42,377 nt of DNA, from NCBI GenBank assembly GCA_016868535.1, contig VGGQ01000006.1, positions 1 through 42,377 on the forward strand, given 5' to 3'. The notes under the pieces were generated by a model. It was not told where the DNA came from, searched no databases, and saw only the letters and a program-made list of their open reading frames with translations. Both the position numbers and the translations under genes were made by a program. The stretch comes from Bacteroidota bacterium (GTDB lineage Bacteria > Bacteroidota > Bacteroidia > NS11-12g > UBA955). Below are positions 35,499-41,286 of this stretch, one piece after another. Every line of letters starts with the position of its first letter. The first letter of the stretch is position 1.

Positions 35499-36419
35499 AT
35501 GACCATAAAACACTTTCAGATTATTAGTTTGTGGACAGCCGCTGTGCTGTCATCCCTTTTGGTACTTCTCTCAGAAAATACACTCTTCGGCGACACTTTG
35601 ATACGTGCTTTAATGGGATTTTTTGCCTTTGATATTGTGATTTTTGCCGCAGTTTCATCTTCATTGTTGCTAAAAGGCTCAAGACCCTCCTTCTACAATA
35701 TTTTCAGGATTCTGGGTGCCACAGGGGGTCTTGCCAATTTAATCATTGTGTTAAATGCGGCTTTTTCTGTTGATGAATATTGGACAGAGGGAATAAACGG
35801 AATCTTCTTTGTTTGTGCAGGTGTTTCTTTCGTGTTCGTGTTGTTCAATTATCTGGTAACATCAGAACGTGCCCTGGAGGATAAAAGACGCTCACAAAAA
35901 CCCGAAGTCTTGGACTGGATTTTCATCACAGTGGTTCCTATGCTGATTGCTGGTTATGGGATTTTTTCACTGTATAACCAAAAAACAGCCTCAAGCAGCG
36001 TGGGTGAGCCGGACTATATTTTGAAGCCTTCGGGATTAATGGAGGCGTTTGAAAAAGATGCTGCCGCGGCGAATCAAAAATATATTGGTAAAGTGATTCG
36101 CTTTTCCGGTTCAGTGGCAGAAATTGGGGGAGATTCCTCTATTCTTCTCACGTTAAATGCCTGGAAAGAAGGTTACAGTATTAACTGTGATTTTGATATC
36201 GCGCTCAAAGATAAATTGTCGGCTGTCTTGCAGGGCGATTCGGTTTTACTTCAGTGCTCTTGCAGTGGCCTGAGTGCGCCGGAAGAAGGAATGTCGTTGT
36301 TGTCGGAAACTTTTTTGGAAATGACACGCTGTGCCTTGATTGAAAACTATAAAAACACCCCCAACCTTGGCACGGATGTTGAACATCCCAGTGAAACATC
36401 TAAAAAGAATCAAAAATGA
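35499..36419 (+). CDS. membrane protein with C-terminal OB-fold (tRNA_anti-like) domain
   Basis: 306 residues from ATG 35499 (TTG 35490 is less likely). Five membrane helices at about 8-25, 37-58, 72-90, 101-120 and 139-158. A soluble domain (185-283) follows with the pattern YIGKVIRFSGSVAEIGG, ILLTLN, INCDFD, LQGDSVLLQCSCSG and MTRCALIEN. This is the layout of the tRNA_anti-like OB fold that Bacteroidota use in envelope proteins. The function is unknown, and RNA binding should not be assumed. Overlaps the YceI gene by ATGA, first of a three-gene coupled operon. Confidence 0.72.
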   Translation: MTIKHFQIISLWTAAVLSSLLVLLSENTLFGDTLIRALMGFFAFDIVIFAAVSSSLLLKGSRPSFYNIFRILGATGGLANLIIVLNAAFSVDEYWTEGINGIFFVCAGVSFVFVLFNYLVTSERALEDKRRSQKPEVLDWIFITVVPMLIAGYGIFSLYNQKTASSSVGEPDYILKPSGLMEAFEKDAAAANQKYIGKVIRFSGSVAEIGGDSSILLTLNAWKEGYSINCDFDIALKDKLSAVLQGDSVLLQCSCSGLSAPEEGMSLLSETFLEMTRCALIENYKNTPNLGTDVEHPSETSKKNQK

Positions 36420-36961
36420 AGTATTTTTTTTGCATAATTGTGGTGTTAGGTTTGCTGCAACACAGCGAAGCCCAGGTTTATTCTACTTCTTCAGGAACCA
36501 TTAAGTTTTTCAGCAAAACCACAGCCGAAAATATTGATGCTACCAATAACCAGGTGAAAGCTGCGCTGGACGCCAAAACCGGAAATATTGAGTTTGCGGT
36601 TTCTGTTAATAGTTTTTTGTTTAAAAAAGCCCTGATGCAGAAGCATTTTCAGGAGAATTACATGGAAACTATAAAGTTTCCGAAAAGCACTTTTATAGGC
36701 AGTATTACAGATAACACTGCCGTAAATTATGGCAAAGATGGCACCTATCCCGTGAGTGTTAAAGGTAAACTGACAATGCACGGCGTAAACAGAGAAGTTA
36801 CTATTCCAGGAAAAGTTTCTATTTCAAGCAAAAAAGCCCTATTGTCAGCTGATTTTAATGTGCTGCTGGAGGAATACAAGATTAAGGTTCCGGCCAATAA
36901 TGCTTCACAAATCGCTAAAAGCATTAAAGTGAGCGTGGATTGCTCATTGCAAAAGAAATGA
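36416..36961 (+). CDS. YceI family periplasmic lipocalin-like protein
   Basis: 181 residues. Signal peptide MKYFFCIIVVLGLLQHSEAQ. The YceI fold is seen in SSGTIKFFSKTTAENIDATN, GNIEFAVSVNSFLFKKALMQKHFQENYMET, FPKSTFIGSI, VSVKGKLTMHGVNREVTIPG and the final strands. YceI proteins bind polyisoprenoid-type lipids in a beta barrel; the physiological ligand is usually not known. It overlaps the OB-fold gene (ATGA) upstream and the DUF5777 gene (ATGA) downstream. Confidence 0.93.
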   Translation: MKYFFCIIVVLGLLQHSEAQVYSTSSGTIKFFSKTTAENIDATNNQVKAALDAKTGNIEFAVSVNSFLFKKALMQKHFQENYMETIKFPKSTFIGSITDNTAVNYGKDGTYPVSVKGKLTMHGVNREVTIPGKVSISSKKALLSADFNVLLEEYKIKVPANNASQIAKSIKVSVDCSLQKK

Positions 36962-37821
36962 GTTCAATAAAACTGCGCATACTATTTATTTTTACCGCGG
37001 TTTTAAGTCCTGCGTTTTTGTCAGCGCAGCAGGATTCGGGGTTTTCTTTGCTAGGTGATGAGCCCGCCGAGAGCTCGAAGGTTGAAAACACCTTTAAAAC
37101 AACCCGCGTAATCAATCTGCAAAGCCTTGAGCTGACGGATGCCGGCGTGATGGATGTGAAAATTAACCACCGTTTTGGTGCCGTGGGACTTGGATCTTAT
37201 GAGGCTTTTGGGCTTGATAATGCTTCCGTGAGAATCGGTGCTGAGTATGGTATTGTGCCTAACTTGGCTGTAAATATTGGCAGAAGTAGCCTGGGAAGAA
37301 TGGTAGATGCGGGATTGAAATACAGACTTATGCATCAAACCAGTGACAATGCTAGGCCATTGAGCCTGCTAATCTATGGAGGCGCTGCAAGAACAGCACT
37401 GACCATGATGGGCTCTGAATTTGTGTATACGGCGCAGCTCATTGCAGGAAGAAAAGAAACAGATCGTTTTTCTTGGCAGATTGCACCTTCGCTGTTAAGT
37501 GGAGGTACAGGTCAGGTGATCGCAATGGGAGTTGGTTTTCGTGAGAAGATAACACCACGTACTACTTTTAATGCCGAATATATTCCGGTGTTTTCAAGGC
37601 CTGAGGGCAGAGGCAACACAGGTTTTTACAATTCATTTTCGGTGGGCTTGGATGTGGAAACCGGTGGACATGTTTTTCAACTGCATTTTACCAACAGTGC
37701 AGGCATGGCCGAACCACAGTTTATTGCCCAAACCAATGGTTCATGGATGAGCAGAGGATTCCGCTTTGGTTTCAACATCAGCCGTGTGTTTACGGTGGTG
37801 AATCCTGATAAGTTTCGTTAA
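36958..37821 (+). CDS. DUF5777 family beta-barrel protein
   Basis: 287 residues from ATG 36958, which overlaps the YceI stop; the frame upstream of this is spurious. Signal peptide MSSIKLRILFIFTAVLSPAFLSAQ. Alternating strands follow, with KINHRFGAVG, SVRIGAEYGIVPNLAVNIG, LKYRLMHQ, MGVGFREKITPRTTFNAEYIPVFSRP and a final aromatic strand (FRFGFNISRVFTV). This fits an outer-membrane barrel of the DUF5777 type, which frequently lies next to YceI genes in this phylum. Third gene of the coupled operon. Confidence 0.82.
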   Translation: MSSIKLRILFIFTAVLSPAFLSAQQDSGFSLLGDEPAESSKVENTFKTTRVINLQSLELTDAGVMDVKINHRFGAVGLGSYEAFGLDNASVRIGAEYGIVPNLAVNIGRSSLGRMVDAGLKYRLMHQTSDNARPLSLLIYGGAARTALTMMGSEFVYTAQLIAGRKETDRFSWQIAPSLLSGGTGQVIAMGVGFREKITPRTTFNAEYIPVFSRPEGRGNTGFYNSFSVGLDVETGGHVFQLHFTNSAGMAEPQFIAQTNGSWMSRGFRFGFNISRVFTVVNPDKFR

Positions 37822-39297: not shown

Positions 39298-41286
39298 TCA
39301 TCGTTTTTCTAGTTTTTCAAAGCGTTCTTCCAGATTTTTTATTCGTGTTTCCTGCTCCTTTATGATACTCAGCAAGTAAACAGGCAGACGATCGTAATGA
39401 ACAGAGTAGGGAACCATCTTGTTATGATTCAGAATTTCTTTTCCGGTTGCATCTGTCTCTGCTATGCCTGTGTTGCCTTTCCACTTCCTTTCCGGCCCAA
39501 AAACTACCAGTTCAGGTATAAATTCGGCAACTTCCTCAGCGATAAGGCCTATTTCGTGGTTGCCGCCCAGCGCAGGTTTCAGGTTGTAGGAAACGGGCCT
39601 GAGCGCAAACAATTTTTCTTTGGTTAAATGGAGGTTTTTAATATTTTCTTTTACATATATGGTTGAAGATGTGGGTCTTAATTCACCTCCGGAAGTTCGG
39701 ATTACGGTTGTGCCTGTACCTGTTGTGCTGGAATTCATGATATACCGTGCATTGGTTTCAATAATGCCGTTAGCTATAATTCCGCCTGTAGCCGGGGTTG
39801 TTGTGGTTCCCACACGCAAATTCCCCGTCATATAGCCATTTCCGTCTACTTGAAGATCATACGAGGTTGTGGAAGTGCTCCCAATACGAACCCTGCCCGC
39901 AAAATTTGAAGTGGTTGTACTTCCATTTACCAGCAACCCGGATGTTCCTACCGATAAATCGAAGGATGAAGATGGGGAAGTAGTGCCAATTCCTACGTTC
40001 TTTGTAGTGTTGATCCAGATTGCATCGGTGCATTCCCAACCGCCGCTTCCTGTTCCGCGAACCGTATAACTGGTATTGGACGACGTGCCGCAACTGATGG
40101 TGCTGCCGCCACTTCCTCCCGTACTCGGGGCCCAGCTGCTTCCATTCCATTTTAAAACATCGTTGGTAGCAGGTGCCGTTGTGGAAACGCTTCGGCCTTG
40201 CAGAAGATTGGCATTCCACATGGCAGTGTTGTTTAAGGCATACAACGTATCAACATTTTTTATCAGTCCTGTTCCTGCATATACGTTCATACCCTTTAGC
40301 ACAGCAGGAGTCCACACAGAGCCATTATACTGCAGGACTTCATCGGTTTTGGGTTTCGAAGCTGAAACAGCGTTATCCTGCAAATATGCCGCATTCCATA
40401 AAGCAAAGTTTGCCCTTGCAGTCAAAGTGTCCCCGCTTTTGGAAAGTCCGTAGCCTGCCACCACCGGCTTGCTTCCGCCACCACTGCCTCCGTCAACAGC
40501 GGCCGGTACCCACGCAGATCCATTCCAACGCAAGACATCATCTTTGGCAGGCGCAGTTGCAGCGAGCTTGCGCCCTTGTAAATCATCTGCACTCCATATA
40601 GTCTGTTTATTCATAGCGTGTAAGGTATCACCACTTTTTTTCATTCCGTTGCCGGCCACAATGTTGAGCGTTCCACCGCCACCACCGGTGCTGATTTTGG
40701 CGGGTGCCCATTCTGTGCCGTTCCACTGTAAAACATCGTCTTTGGCCGGTGCTGTGCCCGAAACAGGTTTTCCTTTAATTTTTCCGGCATTCCATACATC
40801 CGTCTCGTTTTGTGCATGCAGGGTGTCGCCACTTTTCTTCATTCCTTGTCCGGCAATAACGTTGGTAGCGGTTACATTTCCCGATTTTGCCGCGTACAAT
40901 GCATACGGAACTGACAGCAGTTGCGTTGTGCCCTTGATGGTATGATTGCTCCCACCGGCAGGATCTGTGTTATTCTCCAGAAAATACGGGCCTTTACTCC
41001 AATCAATGGTGCTGATATTGCCACTGACCACATTTCCGGCACCAATCTGGGCCGTCACAAGTCCATTGGCATTGCTGTTTTGCTTTTGTGTTTAGCTTTA
41101 TACAATATTTCCCGTGGAGCTCCCCTGCCTTATTTTCAGTTCAAGTCCAATGCTTGAATTTGTCACCAGTGCACCGCTGCCATCACGTATTACGGCCTGA
41201 TAAGAGAATAAGTTGGGAGCTTGTGCCTGAAGATATACAATGTATCCAACAGCTGCAGTTATAGCTGTAAGAATTCGCTTTTTCAT
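39298..41286 (-). pseudogene. exported repeat protein with S74 (endosialidase-type) chaperone domain, two in-frame stops near N-terminus
   Basis: A single 663-codon frame from ATG 41286 is interrupted only by TAA at 41098-41100 and TAA at 41092-41094. The start (RILTAITAAVGYIVYLQAQAP then FSYQAVIRDGSG and IRQGSSTGNIV) and the continuation (TQKQNSNANGLVTAQIGAG, IDWSKGPYFLE, QLLSVPYALYAAKSG) are the standard N-terminal module of Bacteroidota S74-type surface proteins. In these, NIV is normally followed by Y-S-E-T, so TAT/TAC and GAA became TAA. Four repeats follow (40123-40854), then a Gly/Ser-Thr-rich region, the S74 domain (YVKENIKNL, LFALRPVSYNLK, IGLIAEEVAEF) and a coiled coil (IKEQETRIKNLEERFEKLE). 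GTG 41058 could restart translation, but without a signal peptide. Confidence 0.82.
40123..40854 (-). repeat. four tandem about 60-66-residue repeats in the S74 protein
   Basis: Each unit runs AG-x-G-(M/L)-x-K-x-x-DTL, then a W-N or W-S segment with a Q/K-G-(K/R) turn, then AP-A-x-(D/N)DVL-x-W-NG-x-x-W-x-P and a Gly-rich spacer. Units start at codons 69, 135, 201 and 261 counted from GTG 41058, giving periods of 66, 66 and 60 residues. The fourth unit is more diverged (GTGLIKNVDTL). The pattern suits a fibrous trimeric stalk. Confidence 0.8.

Follow-up and report, generated by a model that had tools for sequence, protein, structure and literature searches.

The window, i.e. the whole stretch of 42,377 nucleotides that was analysed, carries three consecutive genes on the forward strand between positions 35499 and 37821. 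The first (35499..36419) encodes a protein of 306 aa with an OB fold, the ATG start lying at 35499 and the stop codon ending at 36419; a TTG located nine bases upstream of this ATG is a possible alternative start. It is followed by yceI (36416..36961, 181 aa) and a DUF5777 gene (36958..37821, 287 aa). Both junctions are ATGA stop/start overlaps (36416..36419 and 36958..36961), which bears out the coupling of the genes noted in the first-pass annotation, and both are kept in two sister species (genomes G200 and G202, loci L067 and L068). The dN/dS values of the trio, considered only where dS was measurable and not saturated, were 0.05-0.16, indicating strong purifying selection. Regarding gene numbers, the window's genome encodes two proteins each of YceI, DUF5777 and PF12869. 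On the minus strand, positions 39298-41058 of the window encode a repetitive protein with repeats around GMKKSGDTL, the C-terminus of which resembles a peptidase S74-type intramolecular chaperone (as judged from the translation only).

Predicted properties of the three proteins

The OB protein consists of five transmembrane (TM) helices (residues ~5-158) and a C-terminal OB fold (residues 146-263), which matched Pfam PF12869 (tRNA_anti-like) with E=5.6e-9 and 36.2 bits (cut-off 23.5). The numbers of K/R per loop (1-0-3-0-5) give a clear positive-inside signal with the N-terminus in and the C-terminus out. The protein is thus predicted to reside in the inner membrane, with the OB domain and four cysteines conserved among the five-TM forms (Cys 230, 253, 255 and 278) in the periplasm, where the first-pass annotation had placed the domain, and not in the cytosol. 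The structural model has a moderate pLDDT of 74 overall and of ~90 in the OB core, and Foldseek matches were OB domains of aminoacyl-tRNA synthetases and the solved OB lipoprotein 3f1z. The latter shares the PF12869 OB fold with the window's protein, which differs by its fusion with five TM helices and its linkage to YceI and DUF5777. In most relatives the gene product is only ~140 aa long with a single TM anchor; a search of the relatives found the five-TM form restricted to the window's genus plus genomes G210 and G214, and on this distribution it is a local expansion. An assignment of the five-TM domain to cytochrome b561 was rejected; the domain yielded no Pfam match, and a Pfam profile search of the window's genome for b561 (PF01292) gave no match at E ≤ 0.001. 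A second PF12869 protein of the same genome (150 aa, G000:C2:75598-76002, locus L035) is unlinked, with neither YceI nor DUF5777 as a neighbour within the stretch examined.

YceI matched PF04264 (E=3e-16, 60.6 bits, cut-off 23.7) and, with an apparent N-terminal signal peptide, is by sequence an ordinary secreted, lipocalin-like member of its family, with relatives 5ixg and 1y0g in the PDB. Binding of ubiquinone-8 by GNA1030, a YceI relative, is cited in PMC9113575.

The DUF5777 protein matched PF19089 (E=1.8e-69, 234.2 bits, cut-off 23.1), and its AlphaFold2 model (pLDDT 89.7) is a 12-strand beta barrel, predicted to be located in the outer membrane. No solved relative was found by sequence. 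The nearest folds were NanC, KdgM, OmpG, FapF and the lipid A deacylase LpxR, all of them weak matches generic for small barrels (TM ~0.5, ~10% identity). Invariant positions comprise many polar residues, among them H71, D87, R109, K121, H238 and R276. In the non-subscription literature that was searched, no paper was found to name DUF5777, nor was any description of its function found. The predictions thus assign one protein to each envelope compartment, i.e. OB protein to the inner membrane, secreted YceI to the periplasm and DUF5777 to the outer membrane, as had been suggested in the first-pass annotation.

Distribution, gene neighbourhoods and redox partners

DUF5777 was present in 82 of 198 genomes of the phylum and in 54 of 58 close relatives. 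Gene neighbourhoods were analysed at ~100 loci and at 80 loci of a named set, and counts were taken over 44 loci outside the window's order, 41 within it and 77 of the named set; these sets overlap partly, the named set is biased towards window-like sequences, and all counts are approximate, as genes were called simply as the longest non-overlapping ORFs. DUF5777 directly adjoined YceI at 32 of the 44 loci outside the order (73%), 26 of the 41 within it and 58 of the 77 named ones, compared with a chance adjacency of ~0.2%, our own estimate from ~3-4 YceI genes per genome and ~3,300 genes. YceI occurred in the same gene run as DUF5777 still more often (37/44, 32/41 and 63/77, respectively), and a protein with a CxxCH or CX4CH motif was found in the run at 30/44, 26/41 and 60/77 loci. 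The association of DUF5777 with YceI and redox proteins is strong by these gene orders. Its recurrence across the phylum, the dN/dS values and the low number of family copies in the genome indicate that the trio is more than a chance arrangement.

The complete trio in one run was counted at 8/44 loci outside the order, 28/41 within it and 45/77 of the named set; it does recur elsewhere, and the OB gene is absent from most DUF5777 loci outside the window's order. Regarding the co-occurrence with cytochrome c and copper proteins for which the first-pass annotation had proposed a survey, the link was strong: 68 of the 81 runs holding all three genes also contained a cytochrome, and cupredoxins were found in some loci. 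The common form of the operon in the window's order is cytochrome-cytochrome-OB-YceI-DUF5777. The neighbouring enzymes vary by lineage while YceI and redox carriers recur, and some DUF5777 loci are without a recognisable redox partner. None of the nine genomes lacking COX1 (heme-copper oxidase) carried DUF5777; since 189 of the 198 genomes have COX1, this is nearly uninformative about a link to the type of respiration.

The usual partners are a protein of ~240 aa with two haem motifs and one of ~125 aa with a single motif, which match Planctomycete-type cytochrome models (the long one clearly, the short one weakly). The short cytochrome has a conserved start, CyyDxeexLYP, right after the lipobox. 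With a lipobox in 112 of 123 sequences, most of the small cytochromes are predicted to be lipoproteins. A location at the cell surface is not claimed for them, because acidic residues after the cysteine (2.8 of 12 positions) barely exceeded those in other nearby lipoproteins (2.5 of 12) and a lipobox is no proof of it.

Where cytochromes are missing, other redox proteins often stand in their place, as judged from the gene content. A Rieske protein was found in the operon at eight loci (L109, L112, L139, L205, L224, L229, L231 and L240), a cupredoxin at L118 and L162 (Pfam) and L113 (by resemblance), a DOMON protein at L121 (weak match) and an EB_dh cytochrome at L159; at L112, L118, L229 and L231 cytochromes are also present, and the additional redox protein thus accompanies them there instead of replacing them. 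No counts are given for cupredoxins, as the regular expression used matched none although Pfam confirmed them. T9SS sorting tails were found on the cupredoxin of L118, the DOMON protein of L121 and the CxxCH proteins of L138 and L208, which suggests a site of action beyond the outer membrane for at least some of the partners.

Several further genes were observed around the operon. A Reg_prop/Y_Y_Y histidine kinase and a LytTR response regulator adjoin the cytochrome-OB-YceI-DUF5777 operon at L208:1-2840 and L236:7424-11111, and genes of similar size flank it in L176, L181, L187, L189 and L201; the pair is possibly a dedicated regulator of the operon. At L186:4621-6165 and L192:7393-8937, DUF5777 is followed by a protein of 514 aa with an N-terminal CxxCH domain and the motifs HIHYG and PHSHLLG, reminiscent of copper type II monooxygenases (no Pfam monooxygenase match); in L186 a redoxin gene adjoins it. 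Directly after DUF5777 at L138:7429-9054 and L163:7497-9131, a repeat protein of ~540 aa with one CxxCH is encoded, the L138 copy of which has a Temptin_C match and a T9SS tail.

Separation of the operon into two loci

In related genera (L073, L074, L083 and L149) the operon reads OB-YceI-cytochrome-cytochrome-DUF5777-DUF5777. In the window's genome, OB-YceI-DUF5777 lies in the window and cytochrome-cytochrome-DUF5777 on contig C67. In a phylogenetic tree the DUF5777 of the window grouped with all 'second' copies (support 1.0) and that of C67 with all 'first' copies (0.999), from which it follows that the window's trio carries copy B and C67 the two cytochromes with copy A. In the window's genus, the genes for the electron carriers have been relocated to a second locus. 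The arrangement of two cytochromes with copy A is kept in G198, G199, G200, G202, G203, G204 and G214, copy A of G210 is accompanied by at least one cytochrome, and every sister genome with usable contigs retains both halves. An H-x-N loop motif, kept in copy A and in single-copy DUF5777, is largely lost in copy B, which suggests that the two copies are specialised.

The first cytochrome beside copy A (G000:C67, L146:4385-4750, minus strand) is 122 aa long with one haem motif, compared with 217-226 aa and two motifs in its counterparts in sister genomes; in the window's genome, the haem domain at its N-terminus has apparently been lost or is not read.

The trio had been put forward as the best local candidate for an undescribed multi-component system. 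A reading of the trio as the complete system was rejected, its cytochrome half being shown by the relatives and contig C67.

Proposed function and comparison with known systems

It is quite possible, if somewhat short of probable, that the trio represents one half, the one lacking cytochromes, of a redox operon of the cell envelope that is widespread in Bacteroidota and in which YceI links the membranes through a bound quinone or lipid. Within the periplasm, YceI would hold an isoprenoid quinone or a polyprenyl lipid of similar type; the OB protein would provide its dock at the inner membrane, and DUF5777 the one at the outer membrane, where YceI meets a redox lipoprotein. Reducing equivalents would then be exchanged between the quinone pool of the inner membrane and a redox protein located either at the outer membrane or at the cell surface. 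Confidence in this mechanism is moderate to low. Quinone binding by GNA1030 and the presence of haem attachment genes in the genome speak for it, the DUF5777 loci without an OB gene or a recognisable redox partner against it. The envelope-spanning electron or quinone route of the first-pass annotation is plausible and has gained support, but the trio by itself lacks a redox component. A bolder version, which we consider rather unlikely, is a new outer-membrane redox conduit made of a 12-strand barrel, a YceI carrier and a swappable redox protein (cytochrome c, Rieske, cupredoxin or DOMON) at the surface or outer membrane, working without a multihaem wire; as the cytochromes carry only one or two haems, no electron wire through the barrel is evident.

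A protective role has a precedent in LcoA-BcnA, where a cytochrome b561 and a YceI lipocalin detoxify lipid peroxyl radicals and lower lipid peroxidation, as reported in PMC9113575. By analogy, a YceI-bound quinol might quench such radicals at the outer membrane, with the cytochrome, Rieske protein or cupredoxin recharging the quinol or disposing of the electron. The redoxin gene beside the operon in L186 fits such an antioxidant system; yet the profile search detected no b561 in the window's genome, nothing found here indicates induction by oxidative stress, and the constant element, the outer-membrane barrel, is left unexplained, so that we hold this role to be improbable, if worth keeping in mind. 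A role of DUF5777 as a porin, or as an enzyme of the outer membrane, dedicated to one particular compound, whose metabolism the redox proteins and YceI would serve in place of general electron transfer, is distinctly unlikely: its nearest folds and its many invariant polar residues speak for such a role, whereas the fold matches are weak and generic and it is YceI and the redox carriers, not the lineage-specific enzymes, that recur.

CcmE is, in outline, a TM-anchored periplasmic OB-fold haem chaperone, and the OB protein, likewise membrane-anchored with conserved cysteines, could be a similar haem or metal chaperone, with YceI and DUF5777 helping the maturation of redox proteins. Such cofactor delivery is very improbable, given that partners with different cofactors (haem, [2Fe-2S] and copper) interchange, that the haem attachment genes (Cytochrom_C_asm) lie elsewhere in the genome, and that the OB gene is often absent.

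In the literature, YceI in combination with Rieske or PSCyt1 gave no matches, YceI with cytochrome and Bacteroidetes only incidental mentions, and no description of the operon was found in the non-subscription literature covered. A widespread gene set of Bacteroidota in which small electron carriers are paired with an outer-membrane barrel and a lipid carrier is apparently undescribed. The steady link to YceI and exchangeable redox proteins provides the first functional context for DUF5777 and makes the question of the YceI cargo testable in culturable Bacteroidota; should quinones or electrons indeed cross to the outer membrane, this would be an undescribed route of energy or protection in a major environmental phylum.

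Among known systems, LcoA-BcnA comes nearest, in that a YceI-family periplasmic lipocalin, with a relative reported to bind quinone, is genetically linked to a redox protein; here, in contrast, the constant partner is an outer-membrane barrel and the redox partners are cytochromes c, Rieske proteins and cupredoxins. The window has a YceI protein, and its way of working may be similar, but membership in LcoA-BcnA fails for want of a detectable b561 in the genome. With the 12-strand porins NanC and KdgM and with OmpG, FapF and LpxR, DUF5777 shares the barrel size class in fold comparison; it differs in sequence from all of them and in its invariant polar residues.

In porin-cytochrome conduits such as MtrCAB, a large outer-membrane barrel is threaded by a multihaem protein. 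No cytochrome gene, multihaem or other, adjoins the trio, and the partner proteins on C67 and in the relatives have one or two haem motifs. Common to both is an outer-membrane barrel encoded with c-type cytochromes, whereas the operon described here combines a barrel of 12 predicted strands and partners of one or two haem motifs with the additional YceI and OB proteins.
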